Positions 6,820-58,727 of a DNA stretch of 64,000 nt are shown piece by piece. The notes under the pieces are model-generated. The model was given only the letters and a program-made list of their open reading frames with translations. It was not told where the DNA came from and did no database searches. This DNA comes from a virus. A program made the translations under genes and the position numbers. Position 1 is the first letter of the stretch. Each line of letters starts with the position of its first letter. The stretch lies in the IMG/VR virus record IMGVR_UViG_3300043426_000266, positions 62,001 through 126,000 of that record. One strand, written 5' to 3'.

Positions 6820-6866
6820 TATTTTCAACTCCTATAATTCATAGGAATAGTTTTAAGGAGAAGCAT

Positions 6867-7148
6867 GTGAATCCAAAGTTCTTAAAATGGGTTTTTCCTA
6901 TTATATTAGAGTTTTTCAAATCAGAAAATAGATTTAAGATTTATCTGAAACGTAACCTTACAATTGCAATTTTGTTTATCTCAATGATTTTAAGTTTATG
7001 TTTTAATTTTTATCTATTCGAACAAGCAACTGTTTACGGAGCAGCAGTAAAGGAAAGAGACATTAAACTTGTTGAGTTAAAAGAGAAAATGTCATCTTGT
7101 TCCAAAGACAGAGAAAAGAATGCAGCATTAGCAGCAACTTGCGGCTAA
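6867..7148 (+). CDS. Small inner-membrane protein with short coiled tail
   Basis: A 93-residue protein with a GTG start at 6867 after AAGGAG. It has a basic N-terminus (KFLKWVFP ... KIYLKRN), one strong membrane helix around residues 31-51 (LTIAILFISMILSLCFNFYLF), then a charged, probably helical tail with two cysteines (SSCSKDREKNAALAATCG). This N-in topology with a periplasmic helical tail resembles inner-membrane spanins, but no outer-membrane partner is visible next to it. Function not established. Confidence 0.6.
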   Translation: MNPKFLKWVFPIILEFFKSENRFKIYLKRNLTIAILFISMILSLCFNFYLFEQATVYGAAVKERDIKLVELKEKMSSCSKDREKNAALAATCG

Positions 7149-7196
7149 ATAAAACGATCATGCTTCTTATTATAGAAGAGAAACCTGGAGTACAAA

Positions 7197-8711
7197 GTGC
7201 GCGTAGCTGATTTTAATCAATTATTTGATGCCGCAGAATGGGAAGTTAGAATAGAAGAACTTCAAACATTAAATGTTAAAGGTGTTTGTTTTTATACCGA
7301 TGGCGGTTTTAGAAAGCAGCAACCTTTACCAAATACCTCATGGGGTATACACGCTTATTTCTACAATGATGAGAAAGCAACCAAAACCTCTCGTTACAAA
7401 CTACACTACCCAACCAAAGAAGGTTATTCTGATTTACCCAAAGAAAAATCTTCAATGGTGAATAGCGTTAAGGTTTGGGATGCTTCTGGGTTAATCTCTT
7501 ATAGTGATGCAACAAACAACATTGCAGAGTTACAAGGGGTAATCTCGGCACTTGAGCTGATTCTCAATACGTCATTAAAAACCATGCTTGAAACAGTTCG
7601 AATCTTTTCTGACTCTGAGTATGTTTTAAATATCAACCATCAGATGAAGAAATGGAAGACAAACGGCTGGAAAAAAAGCAACGGCTTATTGATCTCTAAC
7701 ATTGAGTATTGGAAACACCTTGATCGATTATTTGATCAGCTTGGTGAACATGATATGGAAGTAGTGTTTGAGTGGAGAAAAGGTCATCAGGATTTTGGTA
7801 ATTTAATCGCGGATAAGTTATGTACCTTAGCAATTGAATCTAAGATTGAAGTAAACAAGTTTGTCGATGAAAACTGGTACTTCTCTAACGAGGTTATTAT
7901 TCCGGCGTTGATGCTTGAACAGAAGTATCTTCACTTTCCTGGGTTGGTTGAAAAGTATGACAAATACATTCTTGGTTACTCGCTACTAGACGGTACTATC
8001 CCTGTTTCTATGTTGGGGTGTCGTTTAGCGGACATTTCTTTATCAATCATTGAAGTGGAAGATGAAACCTTTCTTGATAAGTTGAAAATTGTTCACAAAC
8101 AATGTTTAACATTAGAAGAGAGTATTAGCCCAGTGCCAATGGTGGTTGATATTAAAAATGTTCTATCCAATAGTTTTAGTGGGTATTTAGATTCCGGTCT
8201 TGTTGGTAAATTACCGCAGGTATCCGAAATTGATGTCGTAACCATTGAAGACCCTGCCAATGGTCGATCGGTATTTCAAGCGATCTACCCTGCCAGAAAT
8301 AGTTTTAAATTGTTAGATGAATTCGTTGCAGGAGTTCGAACATTAGAACGAGCTGAAGATTTAGAATCGACTCATATTCGTAAAACGGATATTACCGAAC
8401 ATTTCTTTGGGGATGTGACAAAGAAAGATAAAACGTCAAAAGCGTTCTTATTAGCAACTGAAGAGGCTGTTACCATTCCAGTTGATCATTGGGTTGGTGG
8501 TGAGCTAAAAACATCCCCTTGTACTTTAGCCTTTGGGTTAGATTTACCAAGAAAAAGAATATTCTTTAATTTAGTAGACCAGGACGCTACGATTTCCGTA
8601 GTAACAATGGAAACGGCTGACTATTCGTTTAAATACTTTGTGTTAGTCGAAACTGCTAAAGGGCGAGGGTTTTGGTTTAACCCTTATTCTAATAACTGTA
8701 TCTTTCGATAG
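7197..8711 (+). CDS. RNase HI with a large C-terminal extension
   Basis: Residues 29-215 are an RNase H type 1 domain with all catalytic positions visible: D35 (FYTDGG), E111 (NNIAELQG), D139 (FSDSEYV), H197 (KGHQD) and D206 (LIADKL). It would cut RNA in RNA-DNA hybrids, removing replication primers or R-loops. Residues 220-504 form a second part of about 285 residues that I do not recognise. Bacterial RNase HI is about 155 residues, so this is three times longer. The GTG start at 7197 follows CTGGAG; no ATG fits. phiKZ also encodes an RNase H in its polymerase and recombination region (recalled, not checked). Confidence 0.85.
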   Translation: MRVADFNQLFDAAEWEVRIEELQTLNVKGVCFYTDGGFRKQQPLPNTSWGIHAYFYNDEKATKTSRYKLHYPTKEGYSDLPKEKSSMVNSVKVWDASGLISYSDATNNIAELQGVISALELILNTSLKTMLETVRIFSDSEYVLNINHQMKKWKTNGWKKSNGLLISNIEYWKHLDRLFDQLGEHDMEVVFEWRKGHQDFGNLIADKLCTLAIESKIEVNKFVDENWYFSNEVIIPALMLEQKYLHFPGLVEKYDKYILGYSLLDGTIPVSMLGCRLADISLSIIEVEDETFLDKLKIVHKQCLTLEESISPVPMVVDIKNVLSNSFSGYLDSGLVGKLPQVSEIDVVTIEDPANGRSVFQAIYPARNSFKLLDEFVAGVRTLERAEDLESTHIRKTDITEHFFGDVTKKDKTSKAFLLATEEAVTIPVDHWVGGELKTSPCTLAFGLDLPRKRIFFNLVDQDATISVVTMETADYSFKYFVLVETAKGRGFWFNPYSNNCIFR

Positions 8712-9153: not shown

Positions 9154-9159
9154 AAACAA

Positions 9160-9190
9160 TTAACCCTCTCCTTTTTAAAGGAGAGGGTTA
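9160..9190. terminator. Bidirectional terminator between convergent genes
   Basis: TTAACCCTCTCCTTTTTAAAGGAGAGGGTTAA: an 11-pair AT- and GC-containing stem (CCCTCTCCTTT region) between the 8722 gene (+) and the 9204 gene (-). Confidence 0.7.
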
Positions 9191-9203
9191 ATTCCTATGC
9201 AGC

Positions 9204-10130: not shown

Positions 10131-10159
10131 AAAATTAATCGTTTCATCGATTCCAAATC

Positions 10160-18240: not shown

Positions 18241-18275
18241 AAACAGCCGCTACTCCCGTAGAGTAGCGGCTGTTT
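18241..18275 (+). other. Perfect 15-bp hairpin in a leader
   Basis: AAACAGCCGCTACTC (18241-18255), loop CCGTA, GAGTAGCGGCTGTTT (18261-18275). It is GC-richer than its surroundings and stands 43 bases behind a complete terminator, upstream of the 18338 gene. Only TTT follows, so it may be a second terminator or a structured leader or small RNA. Confidence 0.65.
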
Positions 18276-41694: not shown

Positions 41695-41724
41695 AGAGAG
41701 GAGCCTAGGCTCCTCTCTTTTCTT
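41693..41724 (+). terminator. Palindromic terminator
   Basis: AAAGAGAGGAGCCT/AGGCTCCTCTCTTT, a 28-bp perfect palindrome centred on CCTAGG, followed by TCTTT. Confidence 0.8.
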
Positions 41725-42144: not shown

Positions 42145-42167
42145 TGGATAATTTCAAAACCCGTATT

Positions 42168-42192
42168 GATAGTTTGGGGTTATAAAACTATC
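42168..42192 (+). other. Hairpin upstream of the 34-residue frame
   Basis: GATAGTTT (42168-42175), nine-base loop, AAACTATC (42185-42192). No T tract. It lies between the 41812 stop and the 42249 start and may be a leader or processing hairpin. Confidence 0.5.
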
Positions 42193-42248
42193 TGCCTGCT
42201 AAGGTGAAAATATATAACTTCTTAATCAAAACCATTGGAGATAATACC

Positions 42249-42353
42249 ATGAACGTAATAATTGAAATTTCAGAAAGCAAAGTCAAAGAGCTTGATAAAA
42301 TTAGTTTTGAAGAACTTGTAAAGCAGGTTCTTCAGAACGTAGAAATAAAGTAA
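42249..42353 (+). CDS. 34-residue micropeptide
   Basis: ATG 42249 is preceded by TTGGAGATAATACC. It encodes MNVIIEISESKVKELDKI then SFEELVKQVLQNVEIK, an acidic amphipathic helix, and stops in a terminator hairpin. Leader, ribosome site and terminator support it as real. Function unknown. Confidence 0.55.
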   Translation: MNVIIEISESKVKELDKISFEELVKQVLQNVEIK

Positions 42354-42376
42354 GGGCAACCCCTACTTTATTTTTT
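42345..42376 (+). terminator. Terminator of the micropeptide gene
   Basis: AAAGTAAGGG-caa-CCCCTACTTT followed by ATTTTTTG. Confidence 0.65.
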
Positions 42377-42390
42377 GTTTAATCTAAATA

Positions 42391-42415
42391 ATTACAAATA
42401 TAAATTATATACATG
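42391..42415 (+). promoter_or_regulatory. Early-type phage promoter P6 with leader hairpin
   Basis: ATTACAAATATAAATTATAT followed by ACATG. The leader forms ATGAC-tcaaac-GTCAT at 42413-42428. Drives the operon 42455-45442. Confidence 0.65.
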
Positions 42416-42454
42416 ACTCAAACGTCATAACCTTCATTATCAAGGAATTTAATC

Positions 42455-53774: not shown

Positions 53775-55940
53775 ATGAACGTTATTCTTTACGAAGAGGA
53801 TTGGGGTCGCTACCCTAGTGCTACAGTACATTATGAAACACAAAATAGATCATGGGTCGAGTTAGCCAAGAAGCTGGAAATACAAGGGGTTAAAAATAAT
53901 AAGTTTTTTTTAGCTCTTTTAAACCCGGCGCTACGTTACGTTGATCCATGGAATGAAGATTTAGACGAAATAACTAAAACAGCAGTTGCAACCGAGATTA
54001 AACTTAATCCCTGGTATTTCTTTAGGGAGATTGCTAGGTTTGATAAATACGAGTTTAATGGTAAAAGATATTATTTAAATGCTAACCGTGGCAACATTGC
54101 CGCATGGTGGTGTTTCTTTAACCACCAGGACTATAACTTAACCCAACCACGTCAGACGGGTAAATCAACATCATCTAACTGGTTAGTCGTTTGGTTACTG
54201 TTCTTCGCTTATGAGAACTCTGACATTATGTTGTTAACCAAAGACAACACACTAAGACAGAATAACGTTAGAGCAATTAAAACGTATCGTGATTTATTAC
54301 CTGACTATTTAAACCCCACAACGAAAAAGGATATTAACAACTTAATCTCCGTGAGTTGTGTCGCATTAAGTAATAAACTCTATACCGCGGTTTCTCAAAA
54401 CTCTAAAGCGGATGCAGATAAAGTCGGTCGTGGTTTCTCTTGTAAGACCTATATTATCGATGAAGGCCCCTATGTTGACTATCTAGAAGTTTCGCTTAAT
54501 GCGATGCTCCCAGGGGGCGATGCGAAGCAAGCGGAAGCGGCTGAGAAGTTTGAACCCTATGGGAACATCTACACGACGACGTCAGGGTCTAAATCCGATG
54601 ATTCTGGTGCTTACTACTATGACATGGTTACAAACTGTCTTCAGTGGTCTGAACACCTGTACGATCTGAAGAACATTGATGCATTAAAAATAGTGGTGGA
54701 TAAAGCTGCGATTAATAAGAATCTTATCAATATTGTCTTTAACCATCGCCAGTTAGGTTATACCGATCAGTGGCTAATTGAGAAGTTGAAAAAGAATGGT
54801 GCGACTGGTGCTAAGGCGAATAAGGATTACTTTAACATCTGGGATGATGGTGCAACTGAATCTCCATTAGATAAAGATCTGGCTAAGGTCATCAAGTCTT
54901 CTCGCAAAGAACCTTGTTTTATTGAATTTACCAAAGAAGGTTATGCCATTAATTGGTATGTTCCAAAGCGTGAAGTTGAAATGCGAATGGCTGTCGGTAC
55001 GTTTGTCCTTGGTCTAGATACTTCAGACGCGGTAGGTCGTGATGCAATTGCAGTGACTTTAACTGATGTAAGTAATTTAGAAAACGTAGCAACGTTATTG
55101 GTTAAGGAAACTAATCTGATTCATTTTGGATATTGGTTGGTCGACTTTTTAGTTAGATATAAAAAGGTGACCCTGGTACCTGAACGTAAAAACCAAATGG
55201 CAACATTGATTGACCTATTGTTAATTCGATTGACGATCAATGGGGAAGATCCTTTTAAACGAATCTTCAACCGAGTTGTTCATGAGGATAAGTGGAAAGA
55301 GAATCTGTACAAACCTTTTCACAATCGCATTCATCGTGATCTAGATGCTTATACTGAGGTGAAAGACCAATTCGGGTACTCGACTGCAGGTAATGGCGAA
55401 TACTCTCGTAACGCGCTTTATACACAAACGTTGATCCTTGCGTGTGAGTATGGTGGAACTGTAATCAATGACGATGGTACAATTAAGGAAATCTTGGGAC
55501 TACAACGTAAAGGAAATCGGATCGACCATGCGAATGGTTCTCATGATGACCGAGTAGTTTCCTGGTTACTTTGTAATTGGTTATTGATTCACAGTAAGAA
55601 TTTAAGTTATTACGGAATTGTTAATCCATTGTCTAAAACCATGGACTATCGTAATAAGTTAAAGTTAGAAAAAGGGGATAGTTCTCTTGCGTTTAAGATA
55701 AGAGAACAAGAAGAGCAGTCAAAACTTAAGGATGAGATTGAAAACTACTTAGTGTTATTAAAGTCTGTTAAAGATGATTTACTTAGCAGTCAATACGAAG
55801 CTAAACTTCGCAAGCTAGAATCCCAATACACTGGAACTGCATTTGGAGCCTTAACGGTAACTGATCTAGTGAAACAGGCGAAAACTGAGAAGTTTAAGCG
55901 GCGGGTGAATCACCGTCGCCAGATGGAGGGTGCTTATTAA
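53775..55940 (+). CDS. Terminase large subunit
   Basis: DNA-packaging motor of 721 residues. Walker A: QPRQTGKST at 124-132 (K130). Walker B with catalytic acid: YIIDEG at 226-231 (D229, E230). An ATPase coupling motif (TTTSGSKSDDSG) follows near 267. The nuclease half has LGLDTSD (D415) and the final NGSHDDR with D591-D592, the metal-binding acids of the RNase H-like nuclease that cuts concatemers. Helical C-terminal tail. GAGGTTGCG precedes the ATG. Gene order with sheath and tube matches phiKZ gp25-gp30 (recalled). The partner small subunit is not evident nearby. Confidence 0.92.
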   Translation: MNVILYEEDWGRYPSATVHYETQNRSWVELAKKLEIQGVKNNKFFLALLNPALRYVDPWNEDLDEITKTAVATEIKLNPWYFFREIARFDKYEFNGKRYYLNANRGNIAAWWCFFNHQDYNLTQPRQTGKSTSSNWLVVWLLFFAYENSDIMLLTKDNTLRQNNVRAIKTYRDLLPDYLNPTTKKDINNLISVSCVALSNKLYTAVSQNSKADADKVGRGFSCKTYIIDEGPYVDYLEVSLNAMLPGGDAKQAEAAEKFEPYGNIYTTTSGSKSDDSGAYYYDMVTNCLQWSEHLYDLKNIDALKIVVDKAAINKNLINIVFNHRQLGYTDQWLIEKLKKNGATGAKANKDYFNIWDDGATESPLDKDLAKVIKSSRKEPCFIEFTKEGYAINWYVPKREVEMRMAVGTFVLGLDTSDAVGRDAIAVTLTDVSNLENVATLLVKETNLIHFGYWLVDFLVRYKKVTLVPERKNQMATLIDLLLIRLTINGEDPFKRIFNRVVHEDKWKENLYKPFHNRIHRDLDAYTEVKDQFGYSTAGNGEYSRNALYTQTLILACEYGGTVINDDGTIKEILGLQRKGNRIDHANGSHDDRVVSWLLCNWLLIHSKNLSYYGIVNPLSKTMDYRNKLKLEKGDSSLAFKIREQEEQSKLKDEIENYLVLLKSVKDDLLSSQYEAKLRKLESQYTGTAFGALTVTDLVKQAKTEKFKRRVNHRRQMEGAY

Positions 55941-56335: not shown

Positions 56336-56936
56336 GATTGAGTATATACTTAGCCCAGTGAATGCGGTTGTGTTTACTGACTGGGATAATCTTTTGGGCT
56401 TTCCGGTAGAGAAGATCCTACCGGAATATTTTTTTATTGATCGAGCTAAAAATCTAGTTGGGGTAACAACTGTTCAAATAGCGATGATTGAGTTTGATAA
56501 GATCATGGGTTCAGTAAATGAACTATTGTCTTTAGAAAACATTCCTTCTGACGTCTTAGACGATTTACTTGCTGAAGGAGAGTCTATTCAACCTAAAACT
56601 TTCTTTGAGAGAGTTAATCCTTTATCTAAAATTAAAACAAAAGAGAAGGTGTTTGACCCTACTCGAATTCTAAAACTCATCTACGCGATTAATCGAGTAC
56701 GATTTGAATTATTCTCTTTTGTGATTGTACAGCTATCAAACTTACAAGCTAAACAAATTAAAGAGTTATATCAGCAAGATCGTATGAAGAATTATGAAGG
56801 GTTACATCTCGCTTATCGAGACTTACTTAACCGTACTTCTAAGAAGGATAAGGAAGCACATTACAAAGCGAATCCTAACTTCATTAGACACCTTCCCGAG
56901 GATGGGTTAGTGGTGCATGGCACAACAGTAAACTAA
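56322..56936 (+). CDS. Unknown 204-residue protein
   Basis: Helical protein coupled to the 55952 gene and ending at a hairpin (56937-56960). Contains an acidic middle (DVLDDLLAEGESIQPK) and a basic end (RTSKKDKEAHYKANPNF). It could belong to the packaging or head module by position, but nothing in the sequence tells. Confidence 0.6.
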   Translation: MTSDKIEYILSPVNAVVFTDWDNLLGFPVEKILPEYFFIDRAKNLVGVTTVQIAMIEFDKIMGSVNELLSLENIPSDVLDDLLAEGESIQPKTFFERVNPLSKIKTKEKVFDPTRILKLIYAINRVRFELFSFVIVQLSNLQAKQIKELYQQDRMKNYEGLHLAYRDLLNRTSKKDKEAHYKANPNFIRHLPEDGLVVHGTTVN

Positions 56937-56960
56937 GGGCAGGTTATCTGCCCTTTTCAC
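56937..56960 (+). terminator. Terminator of the terminase operon
   Basis: AAGGGCAG-gttat-CTGCCCTT followed by TTC. Confidence 0.65.
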
Positions 56961-56981
56961 TTTATGAAAAAGGATATAAAC

Positions 56982-57359
56982 ATGGATCTTAATAAAAATC
57001 AAATCATTGATACTTTAAAAACATTTTTAGGGGTTGATAGATTTCAACACTCTACTTTTTGGGTGGCTGGTAAGGTCTTTGAACTAGCGAATAGAGAAAG
57101 AGTTGTAGGTACGATTGATTATATTTCATTGTATGTTGATTCTAAAACATTTGACTCTTTGGTAGGTGAAGTAGGTTATACTTGTAACTTTAGTAAAGAA
57201 GTTACTTTATGGATTGATGTGGATGATTATCCTATTAAGTTATTTAAGGAAGAAATGAGTACACGTAACACGTATGTTAAGAATAGATTAAAATCTATTT
57301 CTTTATCTAACTTAGATACGTTATTTGTAAAAAGTTACGATGGTATACCTATATTATGA
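56982..57359 (+). CDS. Unknown 125-residue protein
   Basis: ATG 56982 (MDLNKNQIIDTLKTFLG) follows AAAAGGATATAAAC; an ATG at 56964 lies within that leader. Alpha/beta protein (FWVAGKVFELANRERVVGTIDYISLYVDS), no motif recognised. It stands directly before the non-coding hairpin region and is unusually AT-rich even for this genome. Confidence 0.65.
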   Translation: MDLNKNQIIDTLKTFLGVDRFQHSTFWVAGKVFELANRERVVGTIDYISLYVDSKTFDSLVGEVGYTCNFSKEVTLWIDVDDYPIKLFKEEMSTRNTYVKNRLKSISLSNLDTLFVKSYDGIPIL

Positions 57360-57860
57360 ATTACTTTATCAGATGATCGAAAGGTTGGCTGATAAACTGG
57401 GGTCGGGCAGGCGTGGTTGGTTTTGAAGCTTAAGAGACTTAGGATTATAATTATAGAATATAATTATCTACTAGAGATAAGGATAAGGGGTACACGTAGT
57501 AAGTACCCCGATATATTCTTTATTTCCGAAATTATAAATTAGAAACATATTAGACGTTTTTGTAAAGTTTTTACTTTCTCTTGTTTTGCTTTTATAAATG
57601 GGAAATATGCTTTGCTATTTCCCTTCCTTATAGAGAAGTAACCTTGTTGTTACTTCTCGGTTAGTTTAATTAGAATTGCTCAGTAAACAGCAATTCTAAT
57701 TAATAGAGTTTATTAAATTTAGAAAAGAATATATCCCTACTTACAGGGGATATATTCTTCTTTATGCTGATTGAGTTTATTTTGTGTTTATCCCCCTTGG
57801 GATAGGGTTGCGAAATTTTATATGAGTTTAAATTTATCTAATTAGATTGAGAGAAGAGTC
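57360..57860. other. Non-coding region with an array of seven hairpins
   Basis: No frame of useful length occurs in these 500 bases. Seven hairpins with different sequences lie in series: 57447-57467 (9 bp, loop GAA), 57487-57509 (GGGGTAC/GTACCCC), 57600-57623 (GGGAAATA/TATTTCCC), 57633-57658 (GAGAAGTAAC/GTTACTTCTC), 57666-57703 (TTAATTAGAATTGCT with its 15-base complement), 57725-57759 (AAGAATATATCCC/GGGATATATTCTT) and 57789-57804 (TATCCC/GGGATA). All stems are perfectly paired; loops are 3-9 bases. Hairpins three to six are 8-22 bases apart. The first 60 bases are G-rich (GGTTGG, GGGGTCGGG). Strand is not known; all stems fold on either strand. It could be a structured RNA, a set of terminators or processing sites, or a DNA site. 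Confidence 0.8.
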
Positions 57861-58607
57861 ATGAGTGAAACTGGGTTTGTTTATTACTATAGTACCAAGG
57901 AATTGAAACGTTTAAAGAGTGCAGTTGGAAAAGGGGTTACTAAAGAACAAGAAGAGGAAGGGGAGGAATTTGGAGATCGGAGTTTAGGGGGTAAGCTTGC
58001 AGGAGGAGGACGTTATATTCGAGACATTCTAACTTATGGGAGTTTACCTTTACGGTTCTTTGGGTTTGACCATAAACCTGAACGGGGTATTGCAATGAGT
58101 TTAGATCCTATCCCTTTAGACATTGCTAAACTTTATGGAGGGAAACATAAGTTCTGGAAGAGTGGAATAACCCTATACCAATACAAAGTTATTATTGGGA
58201 GTAGTAGCCTTGAGGGGATTAAAGGAAACATTCAATTACATAAAGACAATGGAATGCCTTATCGCATTGTTGGAAGTAAACCCGTTCGAGATTTGATTTA
58301 TGAAAAACAAGAATGGAATTTGGATGAAATTGACGAAAAGCAGATTAAAAAGAATGAAAAAGAAATTGTTGCTTTAGAGAAAAGCTTAGGGTTTTATGGG
58401 TTTTGGGGATTGGACTTAATTCATACGGTTGCAAAAGCCCGTAGAGACATTAAGAAGACCATTGAAGAGAACGTTAGTTTATTAACGAAACGAAAGCAGG
58501 AGAGTGTGCTTTATGGGGAGTTATATCCTTGGGTTCCACACCTTGTTTTGTATACTGGATTTGTAGGCATTGGATTTGATTCAGTTGAGGTTATTAAATT
58601 GAAATAG
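57861..58607 (+). CDS. ADP-ribosyltransferase-like candidate (248 residues)
   Basis: Begins GFVYYYSTKELKRL, then has RGIAMSLDPIPLDIAKLYG and GITLYQYKVII. This spacing (aromatic strand near the start, a GI-x-S-x-xP-x-x-A segment, a Tyr-x-x-x-V strand) resembles the ADP-ribosyltransferase fold, in which phages keep enzymes that modify host polymerase or ribosomes. The expected catalytic glutamate could be the E in YGELYPW near residue 219, but this is not certain. A charged helical part (KQIKKNEKEIVALEKSL) lies in the middle. The base use is richer in GGG/AAG runs than its neighbours, hinting at transfer. GAGAGAAGAGTC precedes the ATG; hairpins lie on both sides. Confidence 0.45.
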   Translation: MSETGFVYYYSTKELKRLKSAVGKGVTKEQEEEGEEFGDRSLGGKLAGGGRYIRDILTYGSLPLRFFGFDHKPERGIAMSLDPIPLDIAKLYGGKHKFWKSGITLYQYKVIIGSSSLEGIKGNIQLHKDNGMPYRIVGSKPVRDLIYEKQEWNLDEIDEKQIKKNEKEIVALEKSLGFYGFWGLDLIHTVAKARRDIKKTIEENVSLLTKRKQESVLYGELYPWVPHLVLYTGFVGIGFDSVEVIKLK

Positions 58608-58641: not shown

Positions 58642-58727
58642 GATTTTAGCAGCTAAGTTACCTTTTATTTAATTAAAGCTTAATACGACGCTTACAAACG
58701 CATTTAGAGATAGATAAATGTAATAAC

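Follow-up and report, generated by a model that had tools for sequence, protein, structure and literature searches.

The stretch of DNA analysed here, referred to as the window, is 64,000 nucleotides in length and spans positions 62001-126000 of a viral record of 205,063 bp. A large terminase gene is located at 53775-55940, the product of which shares approximately 40% identity with those of phiKZ-type phages, while the major capsid protein displays approximately 25-27% identity to known ones. Judged from these identities, the phage belongs, as a distant member, to the phiKZ-like jumbo phages. Such phages transcribe within a protein shell by means of their own polymerases. Very little is known of their RNAs beyond mRNA and tRNA, and elements of the kind described below have hardly been studied. 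Approximately 1.5 kb downstream of the terminase gene lies a gene-free stretch at 57360-57860 (501 bases), which holds seven stems, H1-H7, together with an eighth hairpin, H0, as listed in Table 1. All genes around this array are located on the same strand. The 125-aa ORF that precedes it is a predicted gene, of which the array would constitute the 3' UTR. No homologue of its product was found among phages, viral contigs, Pfam or PHROGs, and a single-sequence AlphaFold model was uninformative (pLDDT 39); single-sequence structure predictions for the flanking proteins were likewise too poor for use. For the 248-aa ORF downstream of the array, a tblastn search of phages returned no match. Searches of viral contigs, phage records and genome contigs, databases from which very near records may have been left out, yielded no alignable relative through the terminase, the capsid, the flanking proteins or DNA patterns, and the early promoter sequence of this phage used as a query gave a single match, in an unrelated phage.

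Table 1. Features in and around the hairpin array (positions in the window)
Feature	Position	Strand	Description
Terminator hairpin of preceding 204-aa gene	56935-56966	+	AAGGGCAG-GTTAT-CTGCCCTT; ordinary type
125-aa orphan ORF	56982-57359	+	131 aa if counted from 56964; 28.5% GC
H0	57366-57395	+	TTATCAG/CTGATAA, inner GATC-GAAA-GGTT; GAAA tetraloop; two G.U pairs; RNA-like
G-rich linker	57397-57419	+	TGGGGTCGGGCAGGCGTGGTTGG
H1	57447-57467	+	9-bp AT stem; loop 3 (GAA)
H2 outer stem	57474-57526	+ only	10 bp, two G.U pairs; encloses the 7-bp core
H2 core	57487-57509	+	GGGGTAC/GTACCCC; 7 bp; loop 9
H3	57600-57623	+	GGGAAATA/TATTTCCC; 8 bp; loop 8
H4	57633-57658	+	GAGAAGTAAC/GTTACTTCTC; 10 bp; loop 6 (CTTGTT)
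H5	57666-57703	+	TTAATTAGAATTGCT/AGCAATTCTAATTAA; 15 bp; loop 8 (CAGTAAAC)
H6	57725-57759	+	AAGAATATATCCC/GGGATATATTCTT; 13 bp; loop 9 (TACTTACAG)
H6 with tail	57725-57768	+	tail CTTTATGCT directly 3' of the stem
H7 with outer stem	57779-57816	+	UUUAUCCC/GGGAUAGG; perfect core 57789-57804, 6 bp, loop 4
248-aa ORF	57861-58607	+	predicted; weak phrog_23338 match (E 5.6e-7)

The seven perfect stems H1-H7 that had been described at this site were all recovered, and the claim that the array contains no reading frame also held, since 57360-57860 includes no ORF of at least 60 aa and 9-15 stops are present in every frame. A coding region or a tRNA remnant is ruled out by these counts and by ARAGORN, which detected neither a tRNA nor a tmRNA in the whole window; a tRNA cluster or tmRNA was rejected on the same result. 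Strong stems were defined by a weight of at least 18, with A-T counted as 2 and G-C as 3. Six such stems are present within 370 bases of the array, whereas 2000 dinucleotide shuffles averaged 0.08 and never exceeded 2, which bears out the original prediction that their density exceeds that of random AT-rich DNA. At most two strong stems were observed in any other 370-base stretch of the window. The count in the array is matched by no other non-coding stretch of the 205-kb record and is the highest among 192 non-coding segments drawn from the same genome, the phage fnug and related loci. Folding of 57360-57860 against shuffled controls, the check proposed with the prediction, gave minimum free energy z-scores of -4.06 (+ strand) and -6.48 (- strand); for neither strand did any of 100 shuffles reach the observed value. 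The array is real and statistically outstanding, and a chance origin is ruled out by the shuffles and the comparison of 192 segments. The 15-bp stem of H5, previously placed among the two longest in the window, in fact ties for second and third place: 16 bp are paired at 9158-9193 and 15 bp at 18241-18275, the latter being a non-coding AAACAGCCGCTACTC stem that does not look like a terminator.

The first 81 bases of the gene-free stretch (57360-57440), which include the G-rich linker, have a GC content of 44%, compared with approximately 28% in the surroundings. A two-layer G-quadruplex within the linker is conceivable. A 13-base match to the linker at two other places in the genome was set aside as an apparent coincidence, both places being coding and composed of Gln/Pro-rich codons, and an 18-base match was present in one viral contig, where the chance expectation is approximately 1. 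No family of direct repeats was found in 57300-58000, and a type III toxin-antitoxin RNA or a CRISPR array was rejected for the absence of such repeats. Kissing interactions between the loop of H2 or H5 and that of H6 were also rejected, with only 4 bp available by inspection.

When the six perfect hairpins were held fixed and the linkers shuffled, the folding energy was unchanged (z = -0.23 on the + strand and +0.23 on the - strand). Linker shuffles fold equally well; the stems are therefore independent, and the array is a row of local hairpins with no larger or long-range fold. A compact RNA resembling a ribozyme or riboswitch was rejected on the + strand value. No match at gathering score was obtained for Rfam models in the 64 kb, the best in the region being an irrelevant microRNA model (E 0.99), and the Rfam families examined, including GOLLD, ROOL and OLE, were discarded in the absence of a covariance-model match. 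The GC skew displays no extremum at the array, and a replication origin marked in this manner was dropped.

Regarding the strand, several local features favour RNA of the + strand. The local z-score of H0 is -4.18 on the + strand and -2.25 on the - strand; the outer stem of H2 gives -1.68 and +1.30, respectively, when its flanks are shuffled, and H7 gives -2.15 and -1.57. Helices with a pairing probability above 0.6 amount to 110 bp on the + strand, including 11 G.U pairs, compared with 69 bp and one G.U pair on the - strand. The perfect stems H3-H6 can fold on either. Counting against a + strand transcript, the region-wide z-score is better on the - strand. The local evidence for the + strand is thus moderate and not decisive, because that strand is G/U-rich in any case and folds less well than the other by region-wide z-score. 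A structured phage RNA was one option of the original prediction, and it can be narrowed to RNA of the + strand, which is favoured by gene order, H0, the outer stem of H2, confined to this strand by its G.U pairs, and the tail of H6. The original interpretation is thus supported in part; of its two other options, a set of RNase sites is conceivable, and a DNA site is weighed below.

The ordinary terminators of this phage consist of a GC-cored stem, a loop of CTAG, AATT or TTAA, and a U-rich tail that runs into TATG, a 4-base loop being present in 60 of 86 hairpins. For 53 terminator-like hairpins located after + strand stops, the distance from stop to stem ranges from -14 to 49 bases and is no greater than 32 in 52 of them. 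TTATG occurs in or just after the tail of 22 of the 53, compared with 5.4% of non-coding 20-base windows. In phiKZ, the late promoter element is TATG, the G of which is the start site, and this element is necessary, not sufficient (PMC4666361). The motif is also short, and both points count against the transcript reading proposed below. Read with the phiKZ rule, the frequency of TTATG suggests that many terminator tails in this phage probably double as late promoters. Terminator hairpins that pass straight into TTATG can be observed genome-wide, for example at 41720, 57758 and 60415 of the window. The terminator of the 204-aa gene continues into TTTATG, a tail resembling a late promoter of the phiKZ type, and by analogy G56966 is the predicted start of the next transcript.

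After the stop codon of the 125-aa gene at 57359, no terminator was found before H6, at +366. H2-H5 lie 128-307 nt from this stop codon and possess loops of 6-9 nt, compared with the usual four; by their loops they are therefore not ordinary terminators. Fairly U-rich DNA follows H3 and H6, while no U-tract is present directly after the stems of H0, H1, H4 and H5. H6 is the only hairpin of the array with a terminator or late-promoter tail, and its CTTTATGC tail is common to the ordinary terminators. It scores as an intrinsic terminator, with an AU-rich stem end and a 9-nt loop that are atypical. A set of intrinsic terminators was rejected as a description of the whole array, given the tail in H6 alone and the distance of H2-H5 from the gene end. 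The earlier view that the hairpins differ from the usual GC-cored terminators is consequently retained for H0-H5 and abandoned for H6, which is predicted to form the 3' end of the array RNA, with G57766 as the start of the next transcript.

Scanning for enriched words, combined with a weight matrix, located the early promoters and returned a strong motif, TCCAAATnnnTTTCAGATATATATTATTTACATGA, with 29 clear sites in this phage, for example at 10152, 41734, 58719, 58771 and 62560 of the window, those at 58719 and 58771 being in tandem. In phiKZ relatives, early promoters of the virion polymerase are AT-rich and follow the form ATATATATTAT-(6N)-G, where G is the start (PMC5312081); TCCAAATnnnTTTCAGATATATATTATTTACATGA fits this rule and is an extended form of it. 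None of the 29 clear sites lies within the array. Neither an early nor a clear late promoter was found directly before it, the best scores for the early motif being 3.6 and -0.9, compared with more than 22 in real sites. Candidate early promoters at 57817 and in H1, the 3' arm of which bears a weak resemblance to the motif (-0.9), were rejected, their scores being far below those of the 29 sites.

The 125-aa gene has no terminator of its own and the first tailed hairpin after it is H6; the array is therefore best read as a long 3' UTR ending at H6. We tentatively assign a probability of roughly 0.45 to the reading that it is the 3' UTR part of a late phage transcript, or an RNA processed from one, on the + strand. 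Transcription, its start and end points, the stability of the RNA and any role are those we infer from the features above. The late RNA polymerase of the phage would start at the TATG before the 125-aa gene, at G56966, pass the stop codon in the absence of a terminator, continue through H0-H5 and end at H6, the tail of which would overlap the next gene's late promoter. In the resulting RNA of approximately 800 nt, the 125-aa gene would be preceded by a leader of 16 bases and followed by a 3' UTR of approximately 400 nt, where H0-H6 would form individual stem-loops with unstructured A/U-rich linkers between them. H7 would then be part of the 248-aa gene's leader. In bacterial mRNA decay, separate stable stems in a 3' UTR slow 3'-to-5' exonucleases and guide processing by endonucleases. 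A stabilising or processing role is proposed for the array on this basis: by analogy, its stems may one after another impede 3'-to-5' exonucleases and offer sites for endonuclease trimming, the outcome being either a stable upstream message or a stable hairpin-rich RNA cut from the UTR.

The array is unusual, yet of a kind with known precedents. In phiKZ, an ncRNA of approximately 100 nt between PHIKZ297 and PHIKZ298 has been detected by Grad-seq, confirmed by Northern blot and ascribed to processing of the PHIKZ298 3' UTR, with a terminator hairpin at its end according to its authors (PMC8545117). Both loci belong to phiKZ-like phages and consist of hairpin-rich DNA between same-strand genes, and the array likewise is non-coding, has stem-loops after a stop codon and carries a predicted terminator at its end. 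In contrast, the phiKZ ncRNA possesses two stem-loops, whereas the array, known from DNA alone, has seven or eight over approximately 400 nt, and no sequence similarity exists between them. The intrinsic terminators of the phage itself resemble H6 in tail and in the logic of position, but differ from H0-H5, which lack tails, have AT-rich stems and loops of 6-9 nt and lie far from the stop codon. Among long RNAs, GOLLD and ROOL are linked to phages. Together with OLE, they resemble the array in being long, structured and non-coding (PMC12286853), but the array has no Rfam match and its stems are independent, without a long-range fold.

Other hairpin-rich stretches were identified in related loci and in the genome itself. 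Non-coding segments with at least four strong stems were found in the loci L012 and L048, in fnug and in three segments of the own genome, two of which overlap, compared with 0 expected from shuffles; ordinary terminators add to some of these counts. Non-coding clusters comparable to the array occupy L012 (11915-12240) and L048 (6892-7360), while those in L043 (13314-13742) and L010 (12889-13330) overlap small ORFs of doubtful reality. In fnug, a phage of the phiKZ species, the scan flagged the intergenic DNA of PHIKZ297/PHIKZ298 and the stretch between PHIKZ116 and PHIKZ117.3 (115990-116615). The latter resembles the array in possessing several unrelated stems over more than 600 non-coding bases and in being kept in phiKZ relatives, but lies between convergent operons and differs in sequence. 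It is approximately 97% identical among nine phiKZ relatives, three of which carry one hairpin loop in inverted orientation. As a control, 50 kb of T4 contained one three-stem cluster, inside a gene, and no non-coding array, a single control phage being too few for calling arrays special to phiKZ relatives. A second hairpin-rich non-coding stretch of the own genome, at G000:184565-185012 (L083:65-512), lies between a + gene and a - gene and contains ordinary terminators, a TTAACCCCGGAGAG-ACCAGC hairpin and a nested stem, TGATAAACTTAACA...TTCATGAGA...

Several other explanations of the array were weighed. The stems could be tandem weak terminators or pause sites that insulate packaging genes from accessory genes, H6 being the principal one among them. 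The tail of H6, the U-rich DNA that follows H3 and H6, and the mixture of ordinary terminators and extra stems at 184565-185012 make this possible, though rather unlikely, as U-tracts are missing right after H0, H1, H4 and H5, the loops are 6-9 nt rather than 4, and the neighbouring genes are all on one strand in a genome where one terminator suffices at other gene ends. A separate gene for a trans-acting ncRNA is an improbable reading of the array. Such an RNA might, for example, serve as a sponge or decoy against host RNases, RNA chaperones or RNA-sensing defence, with the presence of stems being decisive whatever their sequence. Neither an early nor a clear late promoter was found directly before the array, nor was there an Rfam match, although the unrelated sequences and constant form of the stems, as well as similar arrays in non-coding DNA of distant relatives, would suit such a gene. 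There is also a small chance that nucleus-forming phages of the phiKZ kind possess a distinct class of beads-on-string RNA, which occurs once or twice per genome in non-coding DNA and is made of many unrelated perfect hairpins, its form kept and not its sequence, serving for example as a decoy for host double-strand-specific RNases or RNA sensors.

Two further explanations operate at the level of DNA. Cruciform-forming stems might constitute a site for replication, recombination or packaging, as could be suggested by the perfect and strand-neutral H3-H6, by the arrays of L012, L043 and L048, also a few kb from a terminase gene, and by the inverted loop in phiKZ relatives, a typical DNA-level event at inverted repeats. 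The compared loci were all fetched around the terminase, however, and the nearness is therefore biased. Furthermore, the stems share no sequence for protein recognition, the GC skew has no extremum here, and H0 and the outer stem of H2 make sense solely as + strand RNA; such a site is improbable. Functionless hairpins could instead arise as a mutational by-product, where template switching perfects imperfect inverted repeats in unselected DNA. Perfect pairing without a common sequence in a non-coding place agrees with this, and the loop inversion indicates that strand-switch events occur at such stems. Many non-coding stretches would then be expected to be affected, yet the count in the array is unique in the genome, and the phiKZ non-coding stretch keeps its stems and varies mostly in loops and linkers, albeit at low divergence; on balance this origin, too, seems improbable.

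If arrays of this kind are long structured 3' UTRs, as in the preferred reading, they point to a way in which late messages are protected or processed, and counterparts that can be tested in a laboratory host are available in phiKZ. Moreover, the mapped early promoters and terminators, with the late-promoter-like tails that overlap the latter, make transcript models feasible for a lineage without cultured members. Several minor observations accompany these results. Two distant relatives have their array immediately before a homologous phrog_2921 gene (23% identity) and near the terminase, at L012:11915-12240 and L043:13314-13742; a fixed position beside this gene was rejected, the own copy at G000:141757-142971 having no array. 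Before the terminase gene of L048, AT-rich non-coding DNA at approximately 6830-7360 contains nested inverted repeats and very long perfect stems, one of which measures approximately 22 bp by eye. In the window, three non-coding stems at 42168-42373, within 42145-42454, do not look like terminators. At L086:18245-18275 (fnug) and in L106-L108, the hairpin ATTACCAGTAT-loop-ATACTGGTAAT carries its 9-base loop either way round, as CATTGAGTA or TACTCAATG.
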